From Liolophura sinensis (taxonomy: Eukaryota > Mollusca > Polyplacophora > Chitonida > Chitonidae), in NCBI RefSeq assembly GCF_032854445.1, contig NC_088300.1:22735608-22799607 (forward strand): a DNA stretch of 64,000 nt, written 5' to 3'. Shown one piece after another: positions 94 through 22,425 of the stretch. The notes under the pieces are model-generated. The model saw only the letters and a program-made list of their open reading frames with translations, was not told where the DNA came from and ran no database searches. Made by a program: the position numbers and the translations under genes. Numbering within the stretch: the stretch's first letter is position 1; the number at the start of each line of letters is the position of its first letter.

Positions 94-290
94 TTAATCC
101 CCATTAACATGTGTATTTACTAAGACTGTGGTAAGAACACAAAGCTTTGAGAGCTGACCCTTCTGAATCTTTCTATCAAATACATACTGGATGCCTCGGC
201 GTTTCCTCTTCATATAGACAACAACAGCCAGAACGATGAAGAAGAAAACAACCACACAAGTCACCACCACAGCCACTGTTATTTTAGGGT
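94..290 (-). CDS. Exon 17 of LTD-mucin gene: transmembrane helix and cytoplasmic tail
   Basis: Phase 1 in after TTTCTTGCAG; stop TAA at 94-96. Encodes a hydrophobic helix (ITVAVVVTCVVVFFFIVLA…) followed by KRKRR, the stop-transfer signal of a type I protein, and a tail of about 37 residues. Weak donors inside the tail (AAGG|GTCAGC, CTTA|GTAAAT) leave room for a further exon outside the window. No polyadenylation signal is seen in 1-93. Confidence 0.78.
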
Positions 291-3200
291 CTGCAAGAAA
301 ACGGTAATTAAAGGACATTAGGTTTGTAAGGGAACAGCAAGTGAGAGACATTAGGGTCTGCAAGGGAACAGCAAGTGGAAGATATTTGGGTCTGCAAAGG
401 AACAGCAAGTGAATGACATTAGGGTCTGCAAGGAACAGCAAGTGGAAGACAAGATACTAAGCAAAAACATTTGTAACTAGTATAAATGAGCAAAGGCTGT
501 TTTGAGAAAAGCAAACTTGACAAAATGCCAAGGTCTACATAATACTGTTTACATCAAGAATTTGCCCAGACAGAGATTAATGATTGCCTTATGTAGTCTG
601 AATTAACATTAGTACTGCCCCAATTCAGTATTAGGTCATTGTGCAGTCCTGAGTGCTAACCACCTCTGCCATGAAGGCCCCCAAAGTCAACATTAAACCT
701 TATTAACACATCAACGCAATAAACTTGAACTTACTATTACCCCCTGATGGAGAAACAGGACTGCAAAAGCTGAAGCAGCTGCTATTCACTGTGTAACTGT
801 GGTTGGCAAAGGTGACAGTCTTGGAAGACTTCACAAACGCCTTGTAATGTTGCCAGATGTTTTCTCTCTGCGAGTCGCTTGTTGCATAAATATTGGCTTC
901 CATCAGCACACTCCCACAGCTGAACGTCACATCTGTGAACAAAAGTAAAAAAAAAAAAATCTCTCTCCTACATTTTGATAATGTTTTCGACTACTGTTTA
1001 AAAGGAGAATCATTGCTGATTTTGTCAATGTTTTCCTCATTACATTTAAAGGGATACCAAACAGTCGCTGAAGTTCTTAATGCTTTCATTTACTTTTTAT
1101 GGGGTACAGAATCACCGCTTATTCTGTTTTCTGCATTTAAAAGGGTACAGAATTAGTGCTGATTTTGATGATGCTTTCATCTTGCTGACTGACTGACTGA
1201 CGTAAGAGACAGACAAACCTTCCAGCCTAAACGTATGCCTTATTTAAGCTGAATTTTCCGTACATTACTTTGGCATGGCCAAGGCTGAAAGCCTCAATTC
1301 AGGAAATCCTAGATCTATGTCAGTTTTGATTCTGTATCGTTTCAAGCTTGGAAGGGTAATTCCACGGTAATAAGACAGAATCAATACATAATATTCATAT
1401 TTAATGTACAATGAAGTTAATAAATATGATGCATCATCCACACAAATATAAAACCCCACGTTTGTCAAACCCGACAAATTACAACACATGTGCCTATTTA
1501 CAAGAACAAACTGACTGAGTTGTAAACAAGTAATGTGAAGGTAATCAATAAGCAATCAGTAATAGGTATGATCTATGATGATCTTCCTCTAGAAAAAAAC
1601 AACAGTACTGTACCACATTTCCAGCACTTACTCTTTAAGTTGGCCTCAGAAAAGCCACACTGGCATCGGCTGTTCACATTCACAATGATGTAGGAGGTCA
1701 CCATCACAGAATAATTTGGAATCTTAAAAAACTCTTTACAGTCAGTCTCCAGCTTGAACGCGATTCTTCTCTGATACTTATCAGATGGGCAATTGTTTGC
1801 TTGTCCCGGTGATGTAAGAGCTATAATGAACTGCGTGGAATTTCGAGCATACTGGTCACTGCATCTGCTGATTGATTCATTAGATTTATACACTCTGAAA
1901 CAGGAACAACATCAGGGCAGATTAATTTTCACATGCTAAAACGTTCTGATTCTCTGTTTTCCACTTATTTACATGTGCTGAAAATGACCTAAAATACTTA
2001 TTTACATGTGCTGAAAATGACCTAAAATACTTATTTACATGTGCTGAAAATGACCTAAAATTGCATCCATGGCTACACTGCATGTTTTGAATGATTCTGC
2101 GATTTTTTGTGACGCAACAAACAGGTGCCTTAAGGTTTGTTTGAGGTAAGCTGATGTCCTCCTGGGAAGATGTTTCATCAAGGATATTAATATTTCGTTA
2201 CATTTATTTGCTTGAAAATAAACCATATTTTCCAATGTTTTATGTCATGTCATTTATTTTTATATTCATTTATTTATCTGAATGGGGCTTAATGTTGCAC
2301 CTTAGAATATTTTTTTTTTTATTTTTTTATTTGACACCGTACTTTTGGTGTTTTACACTGTACTTAAGCTTCTTATGCACGAAGTCAGGACAAAATTAGA
2401 TGAAACAAAATCAAAATGAAGGTGAAAACAACAACACATGCAATTTCCTGGATACGCTTTCTGTGTGTCCTTGAACCAACCAATCAAATGTCCCTGGACC
2501 CACCAATCAAATGTCCCTGGACCCATCAATCAAATGTAGAACTGCGCAATTTGAAATACATGTACATGTACAATAAGTAATTTTTGAAGTTACCTATCAT
2601 GAGGCTTTATTCAGGGAATATAATGGCAATGTAGAAGTTTGGGGTCACTGTCTCAACTAAAACTATCAGAAGATGATTCACCATAATTCCTCAACACTTT
2701 TCACACAGGAAAAGAGCAATTTTCAGTGCAATTTATGTAATAAAAATAAAACTGAAATTTCACCTTTTTTGTCTTATACTTTGCCAGTAATTAAATGATT
2801 TCCTGCTTTTATTTTCATACCTTCTGACAACAATGAAAAGGATTTCATCTTCTTGTAAAACAACAATCAAACTTGACTTGGAAAATAATCCAGGCAATAG
2901 GTCCCGATGAAAAGCTTCATGGAAATGGATTTATTTATTATCTGATTGGTGTTTTATGCCGTACTCAAGAATATTTCACTTATACTACGGCGGCCAGCAT
3001 AATGGTGGAAGGAAACCAGGCAGAGCCCGGGGGAAACCCACGACCATCTGCAGGTTGCTGACAGACCTTCCCACTTATCATGAAAATGGAGCTGGTCTCT
3101 ATATTGACAAGTTACTCAATTATGACCAGGGCTGATGACTTCAACACAGGAAATCTACTGTTAGTTTCTATATGTATATATCCTACCCTGCTGCCTCAAT

Positions 3201-6200
3201 CACACCCACCCCACCCCTTCCATCAATAAGACTCTATCCTGTTCTTGGTTTCCCAACTTACACACGATCCTTGGTGATAAGCTTCTTGTCCACAGGGAGA
3301 TTGTTCAGAATAGCTTGGACAAATGGCGTGGTCATGTTGGATAAGGTTGAGTACACAACAGCATCTACCACACGGCTGGGTGTCATCTCACTGGGCGCAG
3401 AGCACTGCCACTGACGTCCATCGTAAAGGGCTACAGCACCCAACTCTGCATACTGGAAGAAAGAAATGCACAGAAAATCTTTCACAGGTGTGTGTGTAAT
3501 ACATTTGGGTCATTCCGTGTCATTTCAGCCAGCTGTTGTGGTGACCCTCTTGGATTTTGCTGAAAACATTCTTACAAATGCCTTGACATGAGAAAGATTT
3601 CCCAAGTTACAGCCCCAAATTCCAAGTGGTTTTTGAGATATGACCATCTAAAAACACCCTGTAAAGTTCATTTTCAACAGTCGCAAATAGAATATGTGTA
3701 CTGAAGGCATTTTTGGATGACCATAACTTCCAATTCAATGGGCCCAGAAGTCTGAAAAACTACCTACAGGGTATTTTCTACCCTGGCTCTCCAAATATAG
3801 AATCAAAAAATAAATATCTTCAATACTTTTTTTAGATATATGCCCCTAAATATTGTGTTTCGTTCAATGCATATGCTATATTCTGCAATATATATGACAA
3901 TTTGCAGAAGAAAGTCTGACCAGTCTGAGGTATTATTATTTATGTAGTTGGTGTCTGAACTTTGCTCCAGGACAAAAAAGCAGACATTTTACCTCATTTT
4001 TGTCTTAACTGATCCCCATGTTGACAGTTGAACAACTCTTTGAAATTTTTTCCACATCTTTTCACATACAAGACATTTATCAGTCTTATGGGTGAAGTAA
4101 ACCAGACTGCCCAGGTAAACCACCAGCCTTGGGCAAGCTGCTCACAAGCTTTCCCTCATGAGTGTACAGATACTGACACAGTGTACAGACACTGACACAG
4201 TGTACAGACACTGACACAGTGTACAGATACTGACACAGAGTACAGATACTGACACAGAGTACAGATACTGACACAGTGTACAGATACTGACACAGTGTAA
4301 AGATACTGACACAGAGTACAGTGTACAGATACTGACACAGTGTACAGATACTGACACAGTGTACAGATACAGATACTGACACAGTGTACAGATACTGACA
4401 CAGTGTACAGACACTGACACAGTGTACAGATACTGACACAGTGTACAGTTACTGACACAGTGTACAGATACTGACACTGTGTACAGATACTGACACAGTG
4501 TACAGATACTGACACAGTGTACAGATACTGACACAGAGTACAGATACAGATACTGACACAGTGTACAGACACTGACACAGTGTACAGATACTGACACAGT
4601 GTACAGATACTGACACAGTGTACAGATACTGACACAGTGTAAAGATACTGACACAGTGTACAGATACTGACACAGTGTACAGATACTGACACAGTGTACA
4701 GATACTGACACAGTGTACAGATACTGACACAGTGTAAAGATACTGACACAGTGTACAGATACTGACACAGTGTAAAGATACTGACACAGAGTACAGATAC
4801 AGATACTGACACAGTGTACAGATACTGACACAGTGTACAGATACTGACACAGTGTACAGATACTGACACAGTGTACAGATACTGACACAGTGTAAAGATA
4901 CTGACACAGAGTACAGATACAGATACTGACACAGTGTACAGATACTGACACAGTGTACAGATACTGACACAGTGTACAGACACTGACACAGTGTACAGAT
5001 ACTGACACAGTGTACAGATACTGACACAGTGTACAGATACTGACACAGTGTACAGATACTGACGCAGTGTAAAGATACTGACACAGTGTACAGATACTGA
5101 CACAGTGTACAGATACTGACACAGTGTAAAGATACTGACACAGAGTACAGATACAGATACTGACACAGTGTACAGATACTGACACAGTGTACAGATACAG
5201 ATACTGACACAGTGTACAGATACTGACACAGTGTACAGACACTGACACAGTGTACAGATACTGACACAGTGTACAGTTACTGACACAGTGTACAGATACT
5301 GACACTGTGTACAGATACTGACACAGTGTACAGATACTGACACAGTGTACAGATACTGACACAGTGTACAGATACTGACACAGTGTAAAGATACTGACAC
5401 AGAGTACAGATACAGATACTGACACAGTGTACAGATACTGACACAGTGTACAGATACTGACACAGTGTACAGACACTGACACAGTGTACAGATACTGACA
5501 CAGTGTACAGATACTGACACAGTGTACAGATACTGACACAGTGTACAGATACTGACACAGTGTAAAGATACTGACACAGAGTACAGATACAGATACTGAC
5601 ACAGTGTACAGACACTGACACAGTGTACAGACACTGACACTGTGTACAGATACTGACAAAGTGTACAGACACTGACACAGTGTACAGATACTGACACAGT
5701 GTACAGATACTGACACAGTGTAAGACACTGACACAGTGTACAGACACTGACACAGTGTACAGATACTGACACAGTGTACAGATACTGACACAGTGTACAG
5801 ACACTGACACAGTGTACAGATACTGACACAGTGTACAGATACTGATACTGTCTTAAATGCGTATATAGGCTTCACAAACCCCATGTGGCTTGTTTCTTTT
5901 TCTTTTCTTCTGATTGGTGTTTTATGCCGTACTCAAGACTATTTAGCTTATATGACGGCGGCCAACATTATGGTAGGAGGAAACCGGGCAGAGCCCGGGG
6001 GAAACCCACGACCATCCGCAGGTTGCTGGTAGACCTCCCCACGTAACGCCGGAGAGGAAGCCAGCATGAGCTGGACTTGAACTCACAGCGACCACATTGG
6101 TGAGAGGTTCCTGGGTAATTAGGCTGCGCTAGTGCGCTAAGCAGGTAAGCCACCGAGGGCCACACCATGTGGCTTGAGTTAGCTCTATGGTGTGTTTACA

Positions 6201-9200
6201 GGTCAGCCCATAGTGTGGATATGACAAGCTGGTTCTTCATTACAAGACTTTTCCAGGCCCAAATACAAAAATGCCTGATTTTCAAATAAGTTACTTTTAC
6301 AAGGCCTTGCGTTTTATGGCCGTGTATGAACCCAGAGCTATAAGTACATATAGTTATAGCTATAACATATAACATTTTTCCAGGTCCAATTACAAAATGC
6401 CCGTTGCTAATGGTTGTGGGTTTAGCATGGTTTTTTCTCCCACCATGATGCCGGCCACTGTCATATAAGTGAGATGTTCTTGAGTGCAGCATAAAACACC
6501 AATGAATAAATACATAAATAACTAAATACCTCATTTCATGACTTTTCGTGAACTAGAAAATGAGTTTCAAATTCCAGGCTTTTCAATGTTTTCAAGGTTC
6601 AATGAACCTGGAAACTGCAAGTGGTAAGATGTTTCCACGTCCAACTACAAAAACTCCAGGCTTCTCTACGCCAAACAAGTAATATTTAATTTCCAGGCTT
6701 AACTTTCAAGTTTTCAAATCCCTGCACAAACCCTGAGTGTTCATACCGGTTGAGAGAAGACTACATTTGGTTTCTGGTCTTCCGATCCTCCCAGGAGGAA
6801 GTAACCATTCTCATCTGTCTTAAAATTCTCCAGAGACTGGTTGTAGTAAGACTTCCCATCAGTGGCATTGTAAAGCACCAAGACAAATCCCTGCAGATAT
6901 GTTGATTTGAGACCTGCAAGTAAAATCCTCTTATTAAGTGTTGCAGGCAAATAACAAAACAGCTAACAAAACAGCTAACAAAACTCATTTCTTTGTAGTG
7001 AGGTTTCTATAGCCCATGTGTGTTATATATGTTCCAAGAGAATACATATAGAGAGAAATAGCAATTTATCATTTATTTATTTATTTGAACCCGGGGGAAA
7101 CCCATGACCATCCCCACGTTGCTGTCAGACCTTCCCATGTACGCAGAGGAAGCCAATATAAGCTGGACTTGAACTCACAGCGATCGCACTGGTGATAGGC
7201 TCCTGGGTCTTTGCACCTCGGTGGCGTGCTAACCCCCTCAGCCACGGAGGTGCCTTTATTTATTTACATGAATTTATAAATCTGCTTGATGTTAAATGCC
7301 ATACTCATTTATTTTTCACCTATAGGATGGTAGCCACATTTATGGATGGAGGAAATTGAGGCACTTGGCGTAAACCATCCGCTGTTGACAAGTTACTAAA
7401 TGTGTAATTTGCCATACGTGACGTACAGACTTGCATGCACAAATGGTCCAATAAACCTTGATGATTGCTTCAGTAGGCAATTTATGAATTAGGTGTCCAC
7501 AAACAGCCTATGATGTCCAATTTCAAGTAACCCTAAGAAATGTAAATGACCTGTACAATGTATTACTCAGTATGGTATAAAGCTTAAATAGCTTTCCATA
7601 CTTTTCCTAAATGTATGTGTCAAATATATGTCAGAGGCCGCTTACACAAAGGAATCGCTAGCTAAGTTGATTGTTAAAAGCATAAGTTGCCAAGGTAGTT
7701 ACAGTCAACTTAGGCTACGATCGCTTTGTGCAAGAGGCCTCTGGTCAGCTAAACTTAACATTAGCTAAATACAGTGTCCAGGAAAGCCGGGCAACCTGCA
7801 GATGGTCGTGAATTCCCCCCCCCCCACCCCCACCCACCGCTTTGCCCGATTTCCTCCTGCCATAATGATGGCCACTGTCGTATAAGGGAAATAATCTTGA
7901 GTACGGCGTAAAACACCAATCAAATAAATAAATAAATAAATAAATAACGAAAGCCCGGTTATGAGTGATACCTTTCAATTCCACAAACCCAAGCTCCATC
8001 TTGCTTGGTGGATCAACATTGACCTCATTAATAAGTACTTTAGGAAGTGCAGGTAACGAGTTGAAGTAGTTCTTAGGACAGGTGTTGCTCTTTCCAGGTG
8101 TGGGCTGGGATAGCGAGAAGACTAAACCTTTCCTGGTGAAATTGCAGTAGAGGCACCGAGATACACTCCAAGCCTTCTGGTACAAGAGAACAGGTACACA
8201 AATATAAGTCTGGGCATGGGTCTTTTTTTCCTGCTACCTGGCAATACTGATATTTACCAAGGAGATGTTCTGGTACAGGAGAACAGGTACACAAATACAA
8301 GTCTGAGCATGGATGCTTTTTTCCCGATACCTAGTAATACTGATATTTACCATTCAAGTCTTCTCGTACAAGAGAACAAGCACACAAATACAAGCTCTGT
8401 CTCAATGTATGAACAGATCAAGAATTTTTTTTTTCTGTCAACACTTGTACACCTCTGGAGAACAAAACTTACAGTTTGAGCATTAGCTATTTCCCACTAC
8501 ATTGTACTACACTCTGATATACCCTGTGTGATCTGACATAGGTGAATAAATGCAGGTGCACAAAACTTACAGCTTGAACATTTGCTATTTCTCATCACAT
8601 TGTACTACACCCTGATATACCCTGTGTGATCTGATATAGGTGAACAAATGCAGGTGCACAAATACAAGCACAAAACCTCCTACAGGCTACACCAGTATCC
8701 ATGGATGACCAGCTATTGTCGTTAGATATGCATCTAAAATGTAGAAGTTAACTTAGTAGCCTATTTGTTTGGCAGAAAAGGTCTGCAAGATTCATTTTAA
8801 GGTGACACTTCAGCAGTATTCATTCTGTGATGGTGATCCACATCTTTTGGGAGCCGGAAATCCTTTTCACTTACCTCAGAAGGCTTTGATATATTCACAA
8901 AACTTCCAGCAGGTGTGAGAGAAGAGATCAATGCCTTCACTTGGCTCTCCAAACGTCCAAACACTACAGCATCGATCACATCACTTAATCTCGCATTTGA
9001 CAGCCATTCTGTTTTATCCAATTTTTTTGGAGGGGTCTGGAAGTGAGAAATGTAAACAATAATAAACTTTGAACAGATAACACCATTATTACAACAACTT
9101 CAATATTTACCAAATTTTAAAAAATACTGACATTTTACTGACAGGGATCAGTATTAAAAGCTAACATAAAATTTAATGTTTATCGATATCATTTCTGCAA

Positions 9201-12200: not shown

Positions 12201-15200
12201 GTTCAAAATCAGGGATGTTCGCATCTGCATGAGCCAGCCTGTAGAGAACCACGGCACTGCTGACCTCAGGGTCACGATTCAGCTTCAGACTCTTCTGACC
12301 AGCACCATCAGGGGTAGCTTCAACTAAGTACAGAGGTGAGGTCCTGCAGAGACAAAAACACAATTTTACAGGTGAAGTTCAAGTCTCAAAGTTGTCTTTT
12401 ATTTTGATATAGCAGCAAAGGTAGTAATATATTATTTATTAACAATGAAGAATGGTTGTATTTACCTAAGATGCATTGTATTCTTTGATTTAACTGCCAA
12501 TAGTGGCAGATTTAGTGACTACTGGAACCTTGTGGTGTCCCAGTCTCTTGGAAGTTGTGTTAAACCGAGCTATGATGTAAATTAAAACACATGCAACCTA
12601 CTCCACCGACGCCAGACTTGGTGGCAGAAGTCGTGTACTGGTCAATGGCACCACTTGTCAATGGCACCACATGTCAGTGGCCACTATCTCCTCCAGTGGT
12701 CATAGGGCAACAAATGGAGCACACCCTTCAAGAAACCTTAACTGAACCTCTCTGAGTAAAAGTCTCTAAAAATCTTGGTGGTTATGAGAAGAAGGACATG
12801 GGCAATTTGATGGGACAATTTTATTATTCTTACATTTTTCCCTCTAGTTTGTAGACTGTTGTAATGTTGATTGGGTTCCCTGTAAGGCTGACCAGTAACA
12901 AGCCATCAAGAGCCAGATTATCTGCTCCCTTTAGTTCCACATAATCTTCAGTCGCTGACTTCCCCAGGTACACTTCGTTGATTACAAGGCTAACACCTGC
13001 TGCAAACGGAGGATTGAAATACATTCAGACAGCACCCCGTTAAGTCACATACATATGCATCCAATATACAGTACCTCTAGTATACAAGACAATGTGACTA
13101 CTGTGTTTTCTGAATATTTATTTATTGATTGAGCCATACTCAATATTTTTTTCACGTATACAATGGTAATCAGTTTTATGGGCGGAGGAAGCTAGAGAGC
13201 TCAGAATAATAAAACCACCAACCTTTGTCGAGTTAATGACAGTCTCTACCATGTGCTGATATGCACACCACATTAGTGGCAGAAAAGTAGTCTTCAGCAA
13301 ACAACAAAATACACACAAATGTGTTTTCTGAATATTTTCTAAATATTTATTGATTGATTGCTGTTAAACACCATAATCAATAATTTTTAACTTATATGAT
13401 GACCTGTTTTATGGGTGGAGGAAGAGCCTGTAGTTAACCACAAACCTTTGGCAAGTTACTGACAAACTTTATCATGTCCACATATGTACATCATACTAAT
13501 GTTATAAAGTGGTCTTCATCAAACAATGAACTGATACGTAAGCATCATTGAGGAGCACACCCAGGATCTGAATTTAGTGAAGACTGGGTAAAGCCACCAT
13601 GGTTCAACACCAGTTAGGTACACATACCTGGGGGCAATGATGTAGACGGTGTTGTGGGGGCTGATGATGTTGTGGGGGCTGGTGACGTTGTTTGGGCTGG
13701 TGACGTTGTTTGGGCTGGTGATGTTGTTTGGGCTGGTGATGTTTGGGTTGGTAATGTTGTTTGGGCTGTTGACTTTGTTTGGGCTGGTGACGTTTGGGCT
13801 GGTGATGTTGTTTGGGCTGGTGATGTTTGGGTTGGTAATGTTGTTTGGGCTGGTGATGTTGTTTGGGCTGGTGACGTTGTTTGGGCTGGTGATGTTGTTT
13901 GGGCTGATGTTTTGGATGGTAACGTTGTCTGGGATGGCGACCGAGTAGTGGCAGATCCTGGGCATGGATTCTCCTTCCCGGGGCTGGGCGTCATGGACAC
14001 AAACATCTCCGGTTGTTGGGGACAGTAGCTCATAGACAGGTCACGTTCCAAGGACATCTGAGGCAAGTTCACCTGCCATCAATGACACATGAGGAGGAGT
14101 ATATTTTCTATATTTTGAAAGTCACATCTTCAAAATGGTACATTTAAATCTCCAAACATATCACCAACTCTGTACAGTAGTCAGCTAATTTTGATCATGC
14201 TTGAACTTTCTCCAAAGCACAGAATTTCTTATCTTAACAGCAAATGACAGCACTTATTCTTCTGACTACTGTGTATGGCCTTCAGTTTAAATTGGGGACA
14301 AACAGCACTATGGAATACAGAATCCAACCCCACATTTAAAGTCCACATCATATCTCTATGCTGTGAAATATGTCAATTATCCAGTGTATACAAAGCAACC
14401 ATATTTAAATTAAATAACCCACCAAATACGTAAAATTTTCTTCAACATTTTGAAACACTACTTTTGTGCCGGGTTGGGGGGGGGGGGGGGGGGGGGGAAG
14501 CAGTGAACTTCACACAAATATACTACTAGTATATCTTATACTGGACACCAGACATGACACTCCACCCAGTCACTATATACTGATACTGGGACAACCAGTC
14601 ATGTTTCCTTGTGCTAGCGTCTCAGTTCTGAGCGCCAAGCGAGGCAACAACAAGTACCATTTTAAAATTCTTTGGTATGACCTGACCCATGATAGGTAGC
14701 AAGGTCACCGACTTCGGGGAGGACACTCTAACCATTAGGTTGCCGAAGCACTCCAATGTAGATATATACAACAAAATATTAACATGATGTCACTTAACAC
14801 ATATACAAACCTGGGTCTTGTTGACAGCCGTTAAAAATGACTGGCTAGCATTGCTCCCAAGGTTCCCATAGACCACAATGTCCAACAAATTTTTTGTCGT
14901 GAGGATGAATGGAGTGCTCGCAGTTCCATCAGGAATCCAGTAAAGAGCAATGGCTCCAGATCTCGTCTACAAAACATCAAACATCGTTCCACCGTACATT
15001 TCAACACATACACCATGTACGTGCAAAAACAACTGGTTAAGATTTTGTTTTGATTCTCTTTGTGCATGGACCTTCTAATTTCACCAGGGGCCTCCGTGGC
15101 TCAGTCGGTTAAAGCGCTAGCGCAGCGTAATGACCCAGGAGTCTCTCACCAATGCAGTCGCTGTGAGTTCAAGTCCAGCTCATGCTGGCGGCCGTACGTG

Positions 15201-18200
15201 AGAAGGTCTGTCAGCAACCTGCGGATGGTCGTGGGTTTCCCCCGGGTTTCCACCCACCATAATGCTGGCTGCCGTTGTGTAAGTGAAATATTCTTGAGTA
15301 CGGCGTAAAACACCAATCAAAAAAAAAAAAAAAAAAATCTAATTTCACCACAAGTGATACGAGTCACTTTGTGCTCTTTGCGAAGCGACACAACAACGTT
15401 CAAAAAGCTTACAGAGTGAGACACAAGTACTTTTGTGGTCAACTTTCTTGGTATGTATGTATGTATGGGTGAGGTTTTACATCGCACTTTTCAGTCATAC
15501 GGCGATGAGGAATCATTAGATGTGCGTATGTATATCCTATGCCTTCTTGTGGCAGAGCAAGTCCACTGAAGCATCACAGTGAAGATACCAGACCTGACAT
15601 CCTACCCAGTCACGTTATACTAACACTTGTTTCTTTGCTCTAACCTCTCATTGCCAAATTAAGCAAGGAAGTAATGAGTACCGTTCTGAAAGTAGTTGGA
15701 ACGACCCAACTGAAGTTTGATCCCAGGCTTCCTTATTTCGAGGTAGATACTCTAACCACTAGGCCACTGAAGCAGGCTAAACTTTCTTGGTAAAAACACT
15801 AGAACAAACCATGGAATGTGTCTACCGAAAGACTGCAATAGTAAAAAGATTTCACTTATGCAATCAAAATATTTTCGAACAATATCAGCTTTCCTTGCTT
15901 AGCACAACTACTTTCATATTAATCAAAAAATCTAGATGCTTGCGACACATAACAGGTTAATGACAGAAAGACTTCTGAATGGGGTACACAAATCCACACC
16001 AATGACCTTCTTAATGCATTCAGCTATACTTCCTTGCTTTAACTGTCTTCCAACATTCACAACAACAACAAAAAAAAAAGAGTCTATACACATAGACTTT
16101 TGAGTGATACTCAAAAATAGTTTAGATTTATATTACTCCACATACTGGTATTCAATAATGGTCATAGCAGTATGTATTTCATTTACTACTATTACTGTCT
16201 TTTTTTTCTCCAAGAGCCATGGTAAAGTTTTTCAATGTTTTCCCACATTGGCAACTTACCCCATTTAGCTTACTGAGAAGGTCAGTGATGTTGTCTGTGG
16301 ATGCCTCCATCGCCTTGGTAACAGTGTACAAGCCAGTGCTGCTATTTGTTCTACCATGCAGCTGTGCGGTGCCTACTGTCTTGTTTGTCTCTCCATCAAA
16401 AGTAACCAGCCTGATTTGATCCAGAGGAAAATCTGGCGTTCCTGAACTGTAAATTTCTATGAATTTCTCTGTCATGTTGGAGAAGAGCTTAAACTCATTA
16501 ATGAGGAGGCCCTTTGGAGCGACACAGCCAATGGGTGTTGACTCAGGTTCCATAGCGATGGCAGCAAATGCAGCTAGATCCATGGCTTCCTTGGAGTAGC
16601 AGCGCCTTATATCCGTATCTTGATTGAAACAAAGATAAAAACAAAATGAGTTACAATACAAAACTTTTAAGTATCCATGGTCTGCCCCCATTCCCATCAA
16701 ACTCTGCTTTGACAAGTAGACAGCATATCAGTCATGTATTGGGGTACTCAAGTATGTTCAAAAGGTAACATTCAAAATTTTAAATACTGAGTAGGTCAAA
16801 AGATATGAACCAACCTAGAGTAACTAACATACCCAGCGTACATGTGACATAATAAAAAAATTGACCCACAACAGCCATAAATATGCCCCTCCTCTAATCA
16901 AGATGGAGGGCATTGCAAGGTAATTTCCGAGATATTACAATGGACATTAAAATACAACTTAACATGAATGGGTCAAGCTGGGTTCTCAAACTTCATATTG
17001 AAGGTCTAGACATTGAATCTGCAAAAGAGTGTTCTGACAAATTATTGAGCAGTTTTTGCACATAAACCAACGACCAATCGGAAAGATATTGATAAATATG
17101 CAAAACTTATGTACAGATCCAAATGGTCTTTGACCATGTATGCTTGATCTAATGTATACTTGAAATAAACTTGGAGCACAAATTTGATCAAACTCAGACA
17201 ACATTTAGAGAAGTTATGACCCTGAATGCAACCACCTACCAGAATAATGGGGATTGTTAAACATGCAAAAAATCCAGCACACTGGTTTGGGAACTTAATC
17301 AGAGGTTCCACAAAGTACAATTACACACAATATTTTAAAATCAGACAGTGTTTGGGGCAGTTTTTGCACACGAACAAGAATTACAAGAAATCAATAAAGA
17401 TGCAAAACCTAAGCATGGGCCCAGCTGGTTTTCAAACTTAATCTGAGGTTTAATACACAAAATGAACCAGCAAAAAATTTTTAGAAAAAAAAAGACCATA
17501 TTTAGAGTAGTTTCTTGCAAAGAAATCAACAACCAATGAAAATCAAAGAATTCATTAAATATGCAAAACTTACCCTAATTCTTGTAAAGTTTGGGACAGA
17601 TATTAGTAGAGAAGAATGTAGAATATTACATCAGCCTTTGGAAAATTAAAGAGATGAGTATGCTGTTCATCAGATGGTCCAACCATTTTAGGAAAAAAAA
17701 ACTCAATATATTCCTGCTAGAATTACATATATAATGGCTAAAATGAGCGCACCAGGTGTCCCAAATTTTAGTAGAAATAGCATATGTATGAACTGGGTTG
17801 ATTCTCGACAATGATCTGAAATAACCTTTATACCCGCACCTAATCAGAATCCAGGTAAATCATTAAATATGCAAGTCTTATGGATGGATCCAGCTGTTTT
17901 TTGTTCATGAAGTCTTGGAAATACCAGGGCTACTACAGGTTGGTATTCACAGATAAAATGGTGACATGCCATTTGAACTTATTTCTCCCCAAGTTAGCAT
18001 GTTAGTGAACTTACTTTTTGGTGTGAGTAGAATCGCAGCGGTCACCCCAGGAAATAAATCCTGCAACAATGCAGATGGAGGCGTTTGGGAGAATGTGAAG
18101 ACAACTGCATCAACAGGCCGATTATTCTGGAAGACAAAAATCATGGATCTCAGCATTTGTTTGTAATGTGCACAGTGAGTATCTTTACATAAAAATTTTC

Positions 18201-21200
18201 CAACAGATTCAACACTCTTGAATCATGTGGTCCCTCATAACACTTGACAAAAATAAAAATGACCAAAATAGCAATGTTGTTTTATTATTTCATCATGGAT
18301 ACTCTTGTTGGCTAGTTAATATATCTGCATTAATAAAATTTATTTATTCATTGATTGGATTTATGTTTAAAGCAATCCTAAAGAATACAAAGGCAGTCAA
18401 CTTTACGTAATGGGTGGAAGAGACCTGAGTGCTGAGGGCAAATCACTAACAAACTCCCCCTCGTGACAGAGAGACAAACACACTACATAAATGGTGGAAC
18501 ACATGGGGTATTCCACAAGTGTTAGACTGCTTAAACTGCCACACAAGCATTGCCAATCATTCACCAAGGTCCCTACCAACAGTGACAGTGAGAGAATGTC
18601 CAAGGCCAGGTTTGAACTTCCACCTTATGTGACCTATCATTTATTTATTTATTTATTTGATTGGTGTTTTACGCCGTACTCAAGAATATTTCACTTATAC
18701 GATGGCGGCCAGCTGGCAGACCTTCCCACGTACGTAGAGGAAGCCAGCATGCACTGGACTTGAACTCACAGCGACTGCATTGGTGAGAGACATCTGGGTC
18801 ATTATGTTGCACGAGCGCGCTAACCAACTGAGCCACGGAGGCCCCTGTGACCTATTAGATAAAAGCACCAACATCATGGACAGACAGAAAGATAGATGGA
18901 CAGATCCCACAAATAACCATCACTTTTTGATAAAGCTTGCAAAATGAACACGATGCCGATCTCCGAATTACAGTGAAACTTACCGAGGGTGATGTTAACT
19001 TGTCATAGAGAGCAACAGCAAAGGTCAAATTATCAGTGACAGTCAGGTTTACAGCTGTACCTAGACTGATGACTGGGTAGCCAAGACTGTCTGTCAGTTC
19101 ATCTGCCAAAGGAATCTGTTTAATTCTGAAAGGTATAATAAAAAATTCACTCGTACAAAATAAAAATATATATGTATGCTTGTGGTCAAAGCCCAAGAGA
19201 ATATCTAACCAAATCTATACAGCACACTTGGATATACAATGTGATCCCAGAATATCTAACCAAATCTATACAGCACACTTGGATATACAATGTGATCCCA
19301 GAATATCTAACCAAATCTATACAGCACACTTGGATATACAATGTGATCCCAGAATATCTAACGAAATCTATACAGCACACTTGGATATACAATGTGATCC
19401 CAGAATATCTAACCAAATCTATACAGCACACTTGGATATACAATGTGATCCCAGAATATCTAACCAAATCTATACAGCACACTTGGATATACAATGTGAT
19501 CCCAGAATATCTAACCAAATCTATACAGCACACTTGGATATACAATGTGATCCCAGAATATCTAACCAAATCTATACAGCACATTTGGATATACAATGTG
19601 ATCCCAGAATATCTAACCAAATCTATACAGCACACTTGGATATACAATGGGATCCCAGAATATCTAACCAAATCTATACAGCACACTTGGATATACAATG
19701 TGATCCCAGAATATCTAACCAAATCTATACAGCACACTTGGATATACAATGTGATCCCAGAATATCTAACCAAATCTATACAGCACACTTGGATATACAA
19801 TGTGATCCCAGATCTATATGTTGTAAATCTTCAACCTTTTAAATGACTAGCACTTTTTTTTCAGTAGAATGTGTGCATACAAATTATTATGAAAACTATG
19901 CTAAAAATAATTTGTTTATGTCAATAAGGATGCAAGCTTCATAAAACGGTGCAAATTATTTCTCTACACTCATAGTTCTCACAATGTTTCAAAATATTGG
20001 TCACAGAGGCGGCTGGAAAGGCTGGAGAATTATGATAGGTACATGAGTATATGTTCAACCAAAACATTTGTTTCTGGGGTAAATTATAACAGCTACTAAA
20101 TATGTAACTGATCATACTTCTCAGGGCCTCACATAAAAGATAATGGAAGATTAAGAAATAAACCTTGCACACTCGAGCTCAAACTCAGCTATGACTATAT
20201 ATATTTCACTATAATTACATTAATTCATTTTTGTTCACATTAATTCTTATCACTTTTATCACTGATTTCCAACTTTCAGCCAAACTGTATCACACAGTGC
20301 CTTCTCAAACGTCTGACAGAATATCTGAATTTGTGGCTGGTTAACATTGTGAACTCAGCTTCTTTTGCTTATTTATTTATTTACTAATTTAACTGTTGAT
20401 TCATATCATATTCAAGAATTCATGGACATTACTTTCCATCCACAATATAAATCTGATTAATGAAAGGTAAAATTCCCAGAGATTTCTGAAACTGTGTTTT
20501 ACATCTTGACAACAGATCACTGCACTTCTGTCTCTTACATGTCCTGGCTTGTAGCATTAGACCTCCAGACTTCAACTGTCAAGTTCTCCATGCTTGCATT
20601 TTTTTTCTTATGAACGTCTTGAATACGTACAGAGACCAATCCAGTATTACCACCCGTAGAGTTGATATGAACATTACTAATGATAATCTGAAAGGTAATA
20701 CAAAAAGTGGTAATTACGTTTTGACCATGATTTGAAATACTTTACTGGAATAACTGCTTGAAATTACAAAGCTTTACAACACACAGAATAAAATCACCAT
20801 GCTTGGAAAACGGCCAACTTGGAAAAAACTATTCAAACAATATGCACGAACTGTAATTCTTTAACCTTTTCTCATGTTTGCAAGGTGCTTTTTAAAGCAT
20901 ATTTCGAAGGTATTATTTAGTTTAGACTGACAAAATTAAACTTTTTGCTAAGCCCTGAATATGGTCAACCCAACAAATGTAGTTTTGTCTCCAAACTCTG
21001 CATAAATTGCACTGTAAGTAGTTCTTTCATACGCGAAAGGGCGAGGAATTAGGGCAAGTGCACATTACATGAATGCAAGATGTATGTCCAGAGGTAAATA
21101 CATACATGTACATAACTGTAGAACAAAAGTCACCAGGGCCAGATGTTTAAAAGTGTATTAGCTAATACTTGCATTATGTTATATTTTATATTTACATTTT

Positions 21201-22162
21201 TAGCCTCAGCAGCCAATGCAGTTCTCCAAAGTCAGCAGCAGTTTTACTTCATATTTCATATACTGTTTCACAATTTTCATTTGGATAAGTGCAAAATTTA
21301 AGACTTGGCTTAAAGTTAAAACTGGTATTAAAGTCTTAAACCAGTTTTGAACAACTGGCCCCTGGCTTTCAACATGGTCAGCAAAGCCCATCTTACAGTG
21401 AATACTTACAACTATTCACAAATATATTTAGTTATTCATTTCATTAAGGATGCAAGAATTTTTCACTTGTGTGATGTAGTCAGTTTTAAGGCTGGTGTTA
21501 ACTGGAATTTCTGCTGTAACACCTTAAGAAAATTACTCACAAACTTTCCACGTATGACTTCATACTGATATACATAGTATAACTGTGGAAAGCAAATGGC
21601 CTTTAGCAAATGCGAACGGTCACACAAGCGTCAACTCACAGATCCATTATCCCATTATTAATGTAACGGTAATGTACAGCTGGTTGCAACCTCCACCCCT
21701 ATCCCCTCAGTGGCTGAACTTGATGAAGTGTTTTCTCCCCCTTACCTTTCTCCCTGCTGGACTGGGAGTAGACAAAGTTCCTGGAGCCCTTGTTGTTGAA
21801 GATGGAGAGATGGTTGTGGGAGTCACATGTGTTGAAGTTGATTTGGCTGTCGTAACCTGTGACTGTGAGGCCTGTGTTTTACTTTGTGCTGTTGTTGGCA
21901 ATGGTGTTGTTGTTGTTGACTTGATTGATGTCGTTGAACTGTTTGTTGTTGTTCTACTGTTTGTCGTCGTTGAACTGTTTGGTGTTGCTGAACCGTTTGA
22001 TGTTGTCGATGATGTCGTCGCCATAGTTACTGACGTCGACACTGTAGACACTGATCCTGCTGTTGTGCCTGTGGACGTAGTATCTTTCCCAGACACCCAG
22101 GTGCTATGATCTCCAACCAGAAGAATGACAACAACCAGATACACTGACAATGAACTGGCCAT
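94..22162 (-). CDS. Mucin-like type I membrane protein with lamin-tail-domain-like repeats (17 coding exons)
   Basis: Spliced gene read on the minus strand. Exons: 22162-21746, 20687-20539, 19125-18984, 18126-18015, 16618-16260, 14966-14811, 14057-13628, 12996-12834, 12343-11991, 9804-9503, 9036-8875, 8176-7972, 6913-6747, 3452-3262, 1894-1632, 932-735, 290-94. All junctions are GT-AG with matching phases; total 3966 nt, 1321 aa. Architecture: signal peptide (1-25), Thr/Ser-rich stalk (26-139), about five LTD-like repeats (about 140-1110) joined by Cys-containing linkers, a Ser-Pro-Ala-Gln-Thr-Thr mucin block (about 483-588), a Cys-rich juxtamembrane part, a transmembrane helix (about 1261-1283) and a basic tail (KRKRR). 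Repeats share INEV, FVEL, GAIALY and VVDAVVY-type strands, as in LTDs. Many N-glycosylation sequons support an extracellular location. Function unknown; likely a cell-surface or adhesion glycoprotein. The LTD call is from strand patterns, not a search. The last exon could splice onward beyond the left edge. Confidence 0.8.
285..445. repeat. Short tandem repeat carrying copies of the exon 17 splice acceptor
   Basis: About four imperfect copies (roughly 30-37 bp) of a unit reading, on the minus strand, CACTTGCTGTTCC-TTGCAG-ACCCTAAT. Each unit repeats the acceptor context of exon 17. The copy at 425/426 is exactly 135 bp from the exon 17 acceptor. Confidence 0.75.
735..932 (-). CDS. Exon 16 of LTD-mucin gene: extracellular membrane-proximal part
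   Basis: Phase 1 in after TTCACAG, phase 1 out at AATA|GTAAGT. Encodes NVTFSCGSVLMEANIY, FVKSSKTVTFANHSYTVNSS and CFSFCSP: three Cys and two sequons. Resembles a small disulfide-bonded module; family not recognised. An alternative donor (GGGG|GTAATA) lies 8 bp upstream. Confidence 0.78.
1632..1894 (-). CDS. Exon 15 of LTD-mucin gene: Cys-rich juxtamembrane part
   Basis: Phase 2 in after TTTCAG, phase 1 out at TAAAGA|GTAAGT. Starts with the last copy of the linker (ESISRCSDQYARNSTQ, SPGQANNCPSD) and continues into a segment with Cys pairs (NSRCQCGFSE) that lacks LTD motifs. Fold not recognised. Confidence 0.82.
1945..2060. repeat. 33-bp tandem repeat, 3 copies
   Basis: TTTACATGTGCTGAAAATGACC followed by TAAAATACT is repeated nearly perfectly three times in the intron between exons 14 and 15. 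Confidence 0.8.
2470..2540. repeat. 24-bp tandem repeat, 3 copies
   Basis: Unit ACCCACCAATCAAATGTCCCTGG repeats three times with few changes. Intronic; no function evident. Confidence 0.7.
2929..3078 (-). mobile_element. tRNA-derived SINE, 5'-truncated
   Basis: TTATTTATTATCTGATTGGTGTTTTATGCCGTACTCAAGAATATTTC… matches the 3' half of the window's main SINE family in reverse orientation. The tRNA head is missing. Confidence 0.85.
3262..3452 (-). CDS. Exon 14 of LTD-mucin gene: repeat 5, C-terminal half
   Basis: Phase 0 in after TTTCTTCCAG, phase 2 out at CGTGT|GTAAGT. Encodes LGAVALYDGRQWQC and SRVVDAVVYSTLSNMTTP, the canonical GAIALY and VVDAVVY strands. The 3.3-kb intron before it holds the 19-bp satellite and SINE copies. 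Confidence 0.85.
3453..4157. other. Intron sequence without recognisable features
   Basis: Between exon 14 and the 19-bp satellite. No exon-like frame, tandem repeat or known element seen; AT-rich with scattered oligo-A/T. Confidence 0.5.
4158..5850. repeat. 19-bp minisatellite array, about 1.7 kb
   Basis: Close to 90 units of ACTGACACAGTGTACAGAT with point variants (GAGTACAG, GTAAAG, ACAGACACT) and 25-bp units that carry an extra ACAGAT. Because 19 is not a multiple of three and the unit has no stop in any minus frame, very long spurious frames rich in Val, Ser, Cys, Thr and Tyr appear. The array lies in the intron between exons 13 and 14 and no splice signals join it to the gene. Confidence 0.95.
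5911..6164 (-). mobile_element. tRNA-derived SINE, full length
   Basis: Complete element in reverse orientation, from the GATTGGTGTTTTATGCCGTACTCAAG tail to the tRNA-like head (box B region GAGTTCAAGTCC; box A region altered). Flanked by a 12-bp target-site duplication, CCATGTGGCTTG, at 5881-5892 and 6165-6176. Confidence 0.92.
6408..6528 (+). mobile_element. SINE 3' fragment
   Basis: ATGGTTGTGGGTTTAGCATGG…CATATAAGTGAGATGTTCTTGAGTGCAGCATAAAACACC and an (AATA)n-like tail match the 3' part of the main SINE family, diverged. Confidence 0.8.
6747..6913 (-). CDS. Exon 13 of LTD-mucin gene: repeat 5, middle
   Basis: Phase 1 in after TTACTTGCAG, phase 0 out at CAACCG|GTATGA. Encodes YLQGFVLVLYNATDG, ENGYFLLGGSED and PNVVFSQP, matching the FVLVSFNG…SGYFLLGPKGG strands of repeat 4. 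Confidence 0.82.
7071..7254 (-). mobile_element. tRNA-derived SINE with internal deletion
   Basis: Tail (TTATTTATTTGA) joins directly to CCCGGGGGAAACCCATGACC and the tRNA head ending AGCCACGGAGG; the conserved TGTTTTACGCCGTACTC block is missing. Confidence 0.85.
7255..7402 (-). mobile_element. Older diverged SINE-like element
   Basis: Poly-ATTT start, TGATGTTAAATGCCATACTCA, TATAGGATGGTAGCCAC and GGATGGAGGAAAT follow the order of blocks in the main SINE but with heavy divergence, as in similar copies at about 13.1, 13.4, 18.3, 21.4 and 28.6 kb. Confidence 0.45.
7790..7948 (+). mobile_element. SINE 3' part next to exon 12 donor
   Basis: GCAACCTGCAGATGGTCGTG… to GAGTACGGCGTAAAACACCAATCAAATAAATAAA, 5'-truncated, with a C-rich expansion in the middle. 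Ends about 24 bp from the exon 12 donor at 7971. Confidence 0.88.
7972..8176 (-). CDS. Exon 12 of LTD-mucin gene: Cys linker and repeat 5 start
   Basis: Phase 0 in after TTGTACCAG, phase 1 out at GAAAG|GTATCA. Encodes the linker SVSRCLYCNFTRKG and PTPGKSNTCP, then KVLINEVNVDPP and LGFVELKG. The acceptor sits at the edge of a 93-bp tandem repeat, and a SINE tail ends about 24 bp past the donor. Confidence 0.85.
8176..8400. repeat. 93-bp tandem repeat spanning the exon 12 acceptor
   Basis: Three copies (starting near 8176, 8269, 8362) of TCTGGTACAAGAGAACAGGTACACAAAT…. On the minus strand each copy ends with the GTACCAG or GTACGAG of the exon 12 acceptor. Confidence 0.8.
8464..8668. repeat. About 100-bp tandem duplication
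   Basis: Two neighbouring copies of CAAAACTTACAG…CTATTTC…CATTGTACTACAC…TGATATACCCTGTGTGATCTGA…GGTGAA…AAATGCAGGTGCACAAA, about 90% alike by eye. Intronic. Confidence 0.8.
8875..9036 (-). CDS. Exon 11 of LTD-mucin gene: repeat 4, C-terminal half
   Basis: 54 codons, phase 0 at both ends (CACTTCCAG acceptor, TCTGAG|GTAAGT donor). Encodes LSDVIDAVVFGRLESQVKAL and SLTPAGSFVNISKPSE, completing repeat 4. Confidence 0.85.
9503..9804 (-). CDS. Exon 10 of LTD-mucin gene: repeat 4, N-terminal half
   Basis: Phase 1 in after TTGTTACAG, phase 0 out at TACAAG|GTAATC. Encodes CQVPKVVINEVSMNGSVFVEL, SLNPFVLVSFNGT, SSGYFLLGPKGG and LKPGAIALYK, all LTD-type strands in order. Best single exon for a profile test of the domain call. 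Confidence 0.88.
10018..10168 (-). mobile_element. MITE-like dispersed repeat, copy 1
   Basis: TGATTCTTCAATC…GCATGTTCTCAGGGCATTATTCTGCGTAGACTGTTAAAAT… to CGCATAAATTGCACTGAAAGTTGCTCTTTCC. The same block order occurs in copies at 10.3, 20.9, 50.7, 57.0 and 57.8 kb. Confidence 0.6.
10305..10460 (+). mobile_element. MITE-like dispersed repeat, copy 2 (inverted relative to copy 1)
   Basis: AATTCCTCAATCTTTGTGCACTG then GGTTGGATTGACCAATTTCAGGGCTTCG, AAAGTATAATTTTAACAGTC and AGAGTATGCTGG…CTTGCAAAC, with an internal deletion. Lies head to head with copy 1. Confidence 0.6.
11611..11868 (-). mobile_element. tRNA-derived SINE, full length but diverged
   Basis: ATTTATTTGATGGGTGTTTTATGCCGTACTCAAGAG… to TTCAGCCACGGAGGCCCC, reverse orientation, all blocks present. 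Ends about 120 bp from exon 9. Confidence 0.9.
11991..12343 (-). CDS. Exon 9 of LTD-mucin gene: repeat 3, C-terminal half plus linker
   Basis: Phase 2 in after CTCTGCAG, phase 1 out at GAAAA|GTATGT. Encodes VSSAVVLYRL (GAIALY equivalent), MALDFVVYSATASDSP (VVDAVVY equivalent) and the start of the next linker (AISRCVPSVLKMM). Two other frames over this exon are also fairly open but break the gene's phase. Confidence 0.8.
12834..12996 (-). CDS. Exon 8 of LTD-mucin gene: repeat 3, N-terminal half
   Basis: Phase 1 in, phase 2 out (AAAAAT|GTAAGA). Encodes GVSLVINEVYLG, EDYVELKGADNL and GLLLVSLTGNP, the clearest INEV…YVELKG pattern. Tandem acceptors (CAGCAG) allow a start at 12999 with one extra Ala and no frame change. 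Confidence 0.85.
13110..13490 (-). mobile_element. Two older diverged SINE-like copies
   Basis: Near 13110-13260 and 13340-13490: ATTTATTGATTGA(TT)GC…CATACTCAATA, CACGTATACAATGGTAATCAGTTTTATGGGCGGAGGAAG, then AACCTTTGTCGAGTTAATGACAG. They resemble each other and loosely the main SINE. Confidence 0.5.
13628..14057 (-). CDS. Exon 7 of LTD-mucin gene: Cys linker and mucin minisatellite
   Basis: Phase 0 in after TTGCCTCAG, phase 1 out at CCCCAG|GTATGT. After a linker (YCPQQPEMFVSMTPSPGKEN-PCPG) the exon becomes a coding minisatellite of 18-bp units giving Ser-Pro-Ala-Gln-Thr-Thr, with shorter variants. This is an O-glycosylated mucin block placed between repeats 2 and 3. The array also stays open on the other strand; that frame is only a shadow. 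Confidence 0.85.
14476..14497 (+). repeat. Run of 22 G
   Basis: Uninterrupted poly-G in the intron between exons 6 and 7 (poly-C in the transcript). The exact length may be affected by assembly. Confidence 0.9.
14511..14757 (-). mobile_element. Second tRNA-derived SINE family, copy 1
   Basis: ACACCAGACATGACACTCCACCCAGTCAC…ACTGATACTGGG…TCAGTTCTGAGCGCCAAGCGAGG…GACACTCTAACCATTAGGTTGCCGAAGCA. On the minus strand the right end reads like a tRNA (GGCAACCTAATGGTTAGAGTG). Same block order as the copy at 15454-15779. Confidence 0.75.
14811..14966 (-). CDS. Exon 6 of LTD-mucin gene: repeat 2, C-terminal half
   Basis: 52 codons, phase 0 at both ends (TTTGTAG acceptor, CCCAG|GTTTGT donor). Encodes SGAIALYWIPDG and NLLDIVVYGNLGSNASQ, the GAIALY and VVDAVVY strands of repeat 2. 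Confidence 0.8.
15087..15337 (+). mobile_element. tRNA-derived SINE, full length, forward
   Basis: Starts GGGGCCTCCGTGGCTCAGTCGG (tRNA box A), then GAGTTCAAGTCCAGCTC (box B region), GGTCGTGGGTTTCCCCCGGG, and the conserved 3' block GTGAAATATTCTTGAGTACGGCG before poly-A. Flanked by a 13-bp duplication, TCTAATTTCACCA (15074-15086 and 15338-15350), so it is a fairly recent insertion. Confidence 0.95.
15454..15779 (-). mobile_element. Second tRNA-derived SINE family, full-length copy
   Basis: On the minus strand begins CCTGCTTCAGTGGCCTAGTGG with TTAGAG (tRNA-like box A), followed by TGGGATCAAAC, and ends with a body containing CGCCGTATGACTGAAAAGTGCG and a (CATA)n tail. Flanked by a 13-bp duplication, AACTTTCTTGGTA, at 15441-15453 and 15780-15792. 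Confidence 0.85.
16260..16618 (-). CDS. Exon 5 of LTD-mucin gene: Cys linker plus repeat 2
   Basis: Phase 1 in, phase 0 out (AATGGG|GTAAGT). Begins with a linker (DIRRCYSKEAMDL…PIGCVAP, two Cys) that recurs between repeats, then GLLINEFKLF, EKFIEIYSSG, IRLVTFDGET, the first strands of an LTD-like unit. Several sequons (NMT, NKT, NSS, NIT). Confidence 0.85.
16990..17900. repeat. Ancient degenerate tandem repeat in intron 4
   Basis: Blocks like GCAGTTTTTGCAC(A)…AACCAACGACCAATC…ATTCATTAAATATGCAAAACTTA recur at about 17048, 17355, 17507 and 17835 with 150-330 bp spacing. Too diverged to give one period. Confidence 0.5.
18015..18126 (-). CDS. Exon 4 of LTD-mucin gene: repeat 1, C-terminal strand
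   Basis: Phase 0 in after TCTTCCAG, phase 1 out at AAAAA|GTAAGT. Encodes NNRPVDAVVFTFSQTPPSAL, the VVDAVVY-type strand that closes each LTD-like repeat, then DLFPGVTAAILLTPK. Confidence 0.75.
18642..18845 (-). mobile_element. tRNA-derived SINE with internal deletion and target duplication
   Basis: (TTTA)n tail, GATTGGTGTTTTACGCCGTAC…GCGGCCAGC joined directly to TGGCAGACCTTCCCACG, ending AGCCACGGAGGCCCC. A 10-bp duplication TGTGACCTAT (18628-18637 and 18846-18855) flanks it, so the deletion was already in the source copy or arose later. Confidence 0.92.
18984..19125 (-). CDS. Exon 3 of LTD-mucin gene: repeat 1, middle
   Basis: Phase 2 in, phase 0 out (CCCTCG|GTAAGT). Encodes a GYPVISLGTAV stretch and NLTFAVALYDKL, equivalent to the GAIALY strand of other repeats. 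Contains two NLT sequons. The preceding intron carries the 51-bp tandem array. Confidence 0.75.
19199..19812. repeat. 51-bp tandem array, 12 nearly identical copies
   Basis: Unit GAATATCTAACCAAATCTATACAGC…TTGGATATACAATGTGATCCCA. Only a handful of single-base differences across 12 copies, so the array is young or homogenised. As 51 is a multiple of three, it is open in several frames on both strands. It lies 74 bp upstream of exon 3 (in transcript order), in the intron between exons 2 and 3. Confidence 0.95.
19850..20045. repeat. Dispersed repeat, copy A (pair with 62985-63185)
   Basis: Shares AATTATTATGAAAA…AATGATTTGTTT(G/A)TGTCA…GGATGCAAGCTTCATAAAAC…CAAATTATTTCTCTACAC…GTTTCAAAATATTG with the second copy 43 kb away. 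Confidence 0.75.
20539..20687 (-). CDS. Exon 2 of LTD-mucin gene: repeat 1, N-terminal strands
   Basis: Enters in phase 0 after TTTCAG and leaves in phase 2 at AT|GTAAGA. Encodes IIISNVHINSTGG… and NLTVEVWRSN, a degenerate version of the INEV…FVEL half seen in later repeats. It was found from its splice sites and frame; it contains no long open frame. Confidence 0.65.
20865..21062 (-). mobile_element. MITE-like dispersed repeat, copy 3
   Basis: GTAATTCTTTAACCTTTTCTCATGTTTGCAAGGTG…GACAAAATTAAAC…GGTCAACCCAACAAATGTAGTTTTGTC…GCATAAATTGCACTGTAAG…GGGCGAGGAATTAGGG. Confidence 0.7.
21746..22162 (-). CDS. Exon 1 of LTD-mucin gene: signal peptide and Thr/Ser stalk
   Basis: 139 codons ending in phase 0 at donor AAAG|GTAAGG. 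ATG at 22162 is chosen because it starts a clean signal peptide (MASSLSVYLVVVILLVG, then polar residues). The rest is almost only Thr, Ser and Asn, a typical O-glycosylated stalk. A strong 3' splice site (TTCTTGTTTGCAG) lies just upstream at 22199-22200, so the exon probably starts at 22198 and a 5'UTR exon lies further upstream. In-frame ATGs at 22198 and 22195 are alternative starts but would bury the signal peptide behind polar residues. Confidence 0.8.
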
Positions 22163-22425
22163 CTTGCTATTACCCACGTCACATTTCCAACCCATCATCT
22201 GCAAACAAGAACAGTGAGGGTATCTCCTGACAATTTCATAAATGGTAGTTTTCATGGACATTTAAGGCCTGCATTAATATTCCCAGATAGAAAATGTAGT
22301 CCAGACAATGTGAGATCATTATAAGGGATTTTCTAACCTTTGCCTGGAATATTAAAAACCAAAAAAAGGTCCATGTATTGATTGACTTGGAGCATAGCCC
22401 ACAAAAACACACGTCTTGCATAGTT

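Follow-up and report, generated by a model that had tools for sequence, protein, structure and literature searches.

A chiton gene predicted to encode a transmembrane, mucin-like protein with five diverged lamin tail domain modules

Lamin tail domains (LTDs) are familiar chiefly as parts of the nuclear lamina. What, then, are five consecutive LTD-like units doing in a gene of the chiton Liolophura sinensis whose product looks destined for the cell surface? The window analyzed here, a stretch of 64,000 nucleotides on contig NC_088300.1 (C6 below, positions 22735608-22799607), was originally predicted to encode a membrane mucin in which such units are chained together. The question divides into what the gene encodes, whether the repeats are LTDs at all, and to which kind of LTD they belong. 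The genome itself was published as that of Liolophura japonica (PMC11068029), and a correction renames the species L. sinensis (PMC12441733).

The repeats fall within a single minus-strand gene model that runs from 22201 to 94 of the window in 17 exons, at the place first proposed. Each of the 16 introns has GT-AG borders and a compatible phase, and once the exons are joined the frame stays open up to its sole stop at the end; the model is predicted from genomic DNA, exon borders having been picked from candidate sites so that phases agree. The protein measures 1,339 residues from a first methionine (MMGWK, Met at 22198) or 1,327 from a second (MASSL, Met at 22162), which by hydropathy begins a hydrophobic, signal-like segment; the 1,321 residues of the original prediction are replaced by these figures. 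From the N terminus, the order is a signal-like start, a mucin block, units U1-U2, a mucin block, units U3-U5, a Cys-rich juxtamembrane region, a transmembrane helix, and a basic tail. Exon 1 (21746..22201, minus strand, like every feature of the gene) holds, by gene model and composition, the start methionine, the signal-peptide-like segment and the first Thr/Ser mucin block (about 21758-22081; 108 aa, S+T 60%). Module U1 (16524..20687, residues about 150-317) occupies exons 20539-20687, 18984-19125 and 18015-18126 and the first part of 16260-16618, while U2 (13959..16520, about 319-495) takes up the rest of that exon, exon 14811-14966 and the start of exon 7 (13628-14072). The remainder of exon 7 (13628..13958) is the second mucin block, 110 aa with S+T 50% and repeats around TTSPAQ; a tandem repeat lies within it at 13650-13941. 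Beyond it come U3 (9788..12999, about 606-784; exons 12834-12999 and 11991-12343 and the first codons of 9503-9804), U4 (8075..9787, about 785-967; exon 10, at 9503-9804, exon 8875-9036 and the start of 7972-8176) and U5 (1786..8074, about 968-1157; the rest of 7972-8176, exons 6747-6913 and 3262-3452 and the start of 1632-1894). The Cys-rich juxtamembrane region (735..1785, about 1158-1274) is made up of the rest of exon 1632-1894 and exon 735-932, and exon 17 (94..290) encodes the transmembrane helix (about 211-282, ITVAVVVTCVVVFFFIVLAVVVYM), a 38-aa basic cytoplasmic tail and the stop.

Whether this is one gene or two turns on the junction of exons 7 and 8. Exon 7 terminates inside a mucin block and the exon joins are predicted from genomic DNA; on those grounds exons 1-7 might form a gene of their own, for a secreted N-terminal mucin with U1-U2, leaving exons 8-17 to encode a membrane protein with U3-U5. 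Such a division strikes us as improbable: the exon 7/8 junction is GT-AG with phase 1 on both sides, the frame stays open over all 16 junctions, and the units on the two sides are homologous. The single gene of 17 exons is retained in what follows.

Several tandem arrays lie in or beside the gene. A 34-bp repeat in five copies (284-451) extends into the exon 17 acceptor and seems to duplicate acceptor-like sequence in the last intron, where splicing to a different copy would change the reading frame. The intron between exons 13 and 14 holds a 19-bp minisatellite of about 86 copies (4161-5845), that between exons 2 and 3 a 51-bp array of 12 copies with 98% matches (19198-19812), and a 42-bp array of 16 copies sits upstream of the gene (22662-23325). 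Elsewhere in the window, a 371-aa open frame on the plus strand (43479-44594) contains a protein kinase domain (Pfam Pkinase, E 1.2e-20). Rfam and tRNA scans found nothing.

Transmembrane mucins of the MUC1 type combine a signal peptide, Ser/Thr-rich blocks, one transmembrane helix, and a short tail. By hydropathy and composition, the chiton protein likewise has a signal-like start, Ser/Thr/Pro-rich blocks, a single strong transmembrane segment (residues 1274-1305, the strongest hydrophobic segment), and a short tail; it differs in carrying LTD modules in its ectodomain. The non-mucin ectodomain, 1,020 aa in all, contains 33 N-glycosylation sequons against 12.5 +/- 3.0 in shuffles, with none of 2,000 shuffles holding as many. 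The basic cytoplasmic tail contains none, which at 38 aa is too short a stretch for this to mean much. Hydropathy, composition and sequon count thus bear out the signal peptide, mucin blocks, sequons and helix that had been claimed, and together with the gene model they support the proposed membrane-mucin architecture. The product looks like a type I transmembrane, mucin-like glycoprotein of one gene, with surface location and glycosylation predicted from sequence. The juxtamembrane motif FSCGSVLM (735-932 with 1632-1785) resembles the SEA cleavage motif of MUC1. No Pfam SEA match was found in this region, and a genome-wide SEA search gave no match anywhere, its controls being likewise silent. 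When the juxtamembrane region was used as a query, three weak matches outside its own gene were returned (E 0.05-0.27), two of them with stops.

The five units are homologous to one another. Their alignment spans 181 profile positions, identity to U4 being 25-37%, and their borders are set such that U1/U2 and U3/U4 overlap by six residues. A profile built from the other four units scores the one left out at 75.4 bits for U4, 73.0 for U5, 54.7 for U3, 47.6 for U2, and 20.9 for U1; among 999 shuffles per unit (791-906 scored), the best reached 13.0 bits and none attained the real score. The strand motifs named in the original prediction survive in part. A..LY and D.VV are present in all five units, while INEV is exact in U3-U5, becoming INEF in U2, and FVEL is exact only in U4 and U5, with YVEL in U3, FIEI in U2 and none in U1. 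In the degenerate U1, ISNV replaces INEV.

Are these repeats LTDs? General sequence searches give little purchase. Pfam finds no family in the whole protein at E <= 10, and none of the five units reaches the gathering cut-off for LTD (PF00932, 34.3 bits); U2 alone matches that family, at 14.6 bits (E 0.044), and U1 weakly matches Lectin_like (E 0.084, 13.5 bits vs a cut-off of 27). A five-unit profile searched against PDB sequences found no lamin at E <= 10. Because the Pfam and PDB sequence searches fail by themselves, LTD identity is decided here by relatives, in the chiton genome and in bacteria.

Within the chiton genome (609,464,459 bases, 632 contigs), a Pfam LTD search finds five places, three of them over the cut-off: two in lamin-type filament frames on contig C1, two on contig C7 and one elsewhere on contig C6. 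The C1 pair belongs to a tandem of lamin-type filament genes at 65004000-65013000 (L001:198-1961, 4808-6571, 3662-4369), in which a truncated third copy lies between two uninterrupted frames of 587 aa that are nearly identical and each carry a lamin tail. The two C7 places, modeled with exons joined to their neighbors, give secreted-looking proteins of one module each, scoring 34.7 and 36.6 bits, both over the Pfam LTD cut-off. A profile made from the window alone and searched against 38 kb of C7 picks out four ORFs covering both module halves (E 1.6e-9 to 1.3e-5). In whole-genome searches, the only matches of U4-U5 outside their own gene at E <= 1 are two C7 exons (E 0.079 and 0.19), and the only match of the C7 query outside C7 is window exon 10 (E 0.054); these reciprocal matches are weak, at E 0.05 to 0.19.

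The C7 region (2016672-2045854, L005-L008) appears to hold a cluster of single-LTD genes, at least three in number, each with a signal-peptide-like start. One of them, near 2016672-2017744, may be a degenerate copy: its motifs are altered, and one match to it contains a stop. The C7 genes have in common with the window gene the module, the signal-peptide-like start and, in both models, the two tail cysteines discussed below; they differ in having one module each as modeled, and the exons identified include neither a mucin block nor a transmembrane segment. An intron lies near ALYK in both, in phase 1 in the C7 genes and phase 0 in U4 of the window, and on that difference we reject an intron common to the two by descent.

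The same module is found in bacteria. A relative of the C7 pair is encoded at 12 loci in a collection of 84,980 species genomes from bacteria and archaea. Six of the 12 (L010-L013, L017, L018) form the alignment used in profile tests, here called A4; the other six (L014-L016, L019-L021) were excluded as, by eye, less clearly aligned or incomplete, L015 and L021 being rows in a further alignment, A6. Every A4 row matches Pfam LTD at E <= 0.1, the best at 6.8e-7 and 30.1 bits, which is under the cut-off of 34.3. A plasmid search gave one bacterial relative, at E 5e-4 over 32% of the query, and no relative of the L010 module was found among viral contigs. Among the closest parallels are secreted bacterial LTD proteins such as that of L010, a 285-aa frame in a Flavobacteriales metagenome-assembled genome. 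The L010 protein has the whole module in common with the chiton protein, from INEV, FVEL, ALY and D-VVY to SLSR...PTPGASN, and begins with a signal-like segment. Unlike the chiton protein, its frame has no mucin block or transmembrane helix that we noticed.

Set against these relatives, the chiton repeats find their match. The five-unit window profile aligns with the A4 profile at 98.7% (E 3.8e-16) over 163 columns, whereas 100 column shuffles reach at most 1.8% and the reversed profile 0.34%; against the C7 profile the value is again 98.7%. Taken singly, U5, U4, U2 and U3 match A4 at 96%, 95%, 79% and 76%, each beating the best of 40 shuffles by score, and U1 alone stands at 0.36%, under its best shuffle. 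Against the C7 pair, U5 gives 97%, U4 92%, U2 90%, U1 13% and U3 6.5%. In the converse search, an HMM built from bacterial sequences only was applied to the six-frame ORFs of the window plus 10 kb of adjoining sequence; it gives five matches at E <= 0.5 (9.5e-5, 0.0061, 0.064, 0.26 and 0.49), all of them exons of this gene. Checking the repeats against LTD profiles returns a divided answer, in which no unit passes the Pfam cut-off and the five units together show profile homology to LTD-bearing modules.

The predicted fold points the same way. Exon 10 read in one frame (100 aa, without the last strand, which sits in exon 11) was modeled with AlphaFold2 from an alignment of 10 rows, four window exons and six bacterial LTDs, at a pLDDT of 79.6. 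Compared with the PDB by Foldseek, the model returns lamin tail domains at all of ranks 1-16 (E 1.4e-3 to 7.1e-2, none at E <= 0.001), with TM 0.49-0.63 by query length and probability 0.87-1.00, before a drop to noise at rank 17 (probability 0.30). The bacterial L010 module, modeled at pLDDT 66.2 with a low-confidence tail region (residues 131-175), likewise finds lamin LTDs at ranks 1-8 (best E 2.0e-3). These fold results are not fully independent of the profile results, because the alignments included bacterial LTDs. U4 (exon 10) is accordingly best described as having a predicted lamin-type, LTD-like immunoglobulin fold.

Profile and fold together bear on the simplest deflationary explanation, namely that the repeats have a generic Ig- or FN3-like fold and resemble LTDs only through a coincidence of strand pattern. 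That no unit reaches the Pfam LTD cut-off is what such an explanation would predict. Nevertheless, the profile match spans 163 columns and takes in the tail beyond the sandwich, and the lamin LTDs at Foldseek ranks 1-16 are followed by a non-lamin structure of far lower probability; we reject the generic fold, to which we give almost no credence. The claim that the repeats are LTDs thus gains support from sequence profiles and from the predicted fold of exon 10.

That tail deserves attention in its own right. The recurring Cys motif (S-SRC…PTPGK-N-CP in the window) was originally read as a linker between units, a reading we reject: the general form, S-SRC...F...PTPG-N-C, is the end of each LTD module, and the corresponding tail belongs to the module in bacterial relatives as well. 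The L010 module, for example, ends SLSR...F...APTPGASN, which aligns with the window tail; U2 ends SMSYC...SPGKENPCP. An R...PG..N tail, allowing PD or a lost N, is recognizable in five of the 12 bacterial loci (L010, L011, L018, L020, L021). Each of the five chiton units has one pair of cysteines (292/317, 474/494, 760/784, 941/966 and 1132/1156), which would allow one disulfide per module between the two tail cysteines. The pair is absent from all six A4 rows and occurs in one of the 12 bacterial loci, L020, where Microbacterium psychrotolerans has a Cys-bearing LTD tail at about 2800-2870 (RC...PTPGAANVC). We discarded the notion that the cysteines are an animal addition; because L020, which lies outside A4, carries the same pair, they are not peculiar to animals.

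The repeats are, on this sequence evidence, diverged LTD modules of a secreted, bacterial-like kind; we assign them to that kind because both the module tail and the profile are common to bacterial and C7 relatives. An origin in the nuclear lamina has nevertheless to be weighed, since nuclear lamins and lamin-type filaments (PF00932) have the Ig-like LTD fold in common with the chiton modules and lamin-type genes are present in the genome, such that a lamin or lamin-type filament gene could have supplied the repeats via exon shuffling. The chiton protein differs from nuclear lamins in having no Pfam filament match and no CaaX end (its C terminus is NTHVNGD), and it is predicted to be extracellular. 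CaaX-less lamins are reported in Lophotrochozoa (PMC10125929). Against exon shuffling from lamins stand the module tail common to bacterial proteins and the window profile, which scores 0.15% against lamin-type LTDs and 98.7% against C7 or bacterial ones. The lamin figure comes from a three-row chiton profile and is a test of little power, because that profile also fails with the Pfam-positive C7 pair (0.62%) and with A4 (0.09%). The tail would therefore seem a better argument for the secreted kind than the lamin-profile comparison. In a tree of 13 rows, the window units all fall to one side of a branch supported at 83/89; the tree is given little weight because it is small and three of the five units have long branches. 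All told, derivation of the repeats from lamins is unlikely, and we would be very surprised by it. A bolder proposal is that animals hold a separate extracellular LTD lineage, related to bacterial secreted modules rather than descended from lamins, and that chitons expanded it into a membrane-bound array recognizing microbial or extracellular polymers; this whole chain of events we regard as doubtful.

What might such an array do? Our preferred reading, to which we assign a probability of about 0.72, is that the chiton has here a single gene for a type I transmembrane, mucin-like glycoprotein whose ectodomain combines two mucin spacers with five diverged LTD modules of secreted, bacterial-like kind and acts as a spacer and adhesive array of the glycocalyx. 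Each module would comprise an Ig-like beta sandwich and a tail whose two cysteines are taken as bonded. The mucin blocks would keep the LTD modules at a distance from the epithelium, and together these modules could form a stiff, N-glycosylated spacer and adhesive part of the glycocalyx. The modules may bind one another homotypically or engage mucus or matrix, with the helix and basic tail anchoring the molecule.

The main rival accepts the same protein and makes the LTD array a receptor that would bind DNA or polysaccharide, of microbial or extracellular origin, at the surface of the epithelium as a pattern-recognition or capture molecule. Bacterial precedent lends this some appeal. According to PMC6085458, bacterial LTDs occur in secreted nucleases and alongside oligosaccharide-binding domains, and the nuclease ExeM works more slowly in vitro once its LTD is removed; a DNA-binding role of LTDs is discussed in PMC4486849. 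Yet PMC6085458 also reports that the ExeM LTD is dispensable for extracellular DNA degradation in vivo. Moreover, a binding site in the chiton modules is hypothetical only, and the modules are sequon-rich, such that glycans, if the sites are used, would mask much of their surface. A receptor role is possible, though we hold it to be unlikely.

LTDs outside lamins have precedents. Koreny and Field 2016 (PMC5630835) report LTD-like domains in enzymes of bacteria as well as in several non-lamin proteins of eukaryotes, which like the chiton protein carry the LTD outside lamins, and raise a prokaryotic origin. Secreted bacterial LTD proteins and tandem LTDs within one protein are attributed to Mans et al. 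2004 and to Dittmer and Misteli 2011, as cited in PMC6085458, which describes the role of bacterial secreted LTDs as not worked out. The CotH protein of the ichthyosporean Creolimax is another eukaryotic LTD protein outside lamins, but its domain is single and N-terminal (PMC4739763). Two studies report octopus skin mucus proteomes rich in LTD annotations, with nine beside nine filament rods in one (PMC11431876) and seven in the other (PMC10138644); filament proteins may explain these. Flatworm LTD matches are filament proteins (PMC9229212 and PMC6745481). Among the matches listed in a search of open-licence literature, no description of a mucin with LTD modules was found. The original suggestion of an unusual, undescribed architecture holds for the combination among the matches listed, and must be tempered by the non-lamin eukaryotic and tandem bacterial LTDs already known (PMC5630835 and PMC6085458).

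The chiton array bears on the suggestion (PMC5630835) that the lamin LTD came from prokaryotes. With a chain of five LTDs on an apparent animal cell-surface protein and simple secreted relatives in one and the same genome, this chiton offers an animal system in which the role of extracellular LTDs could be tested.
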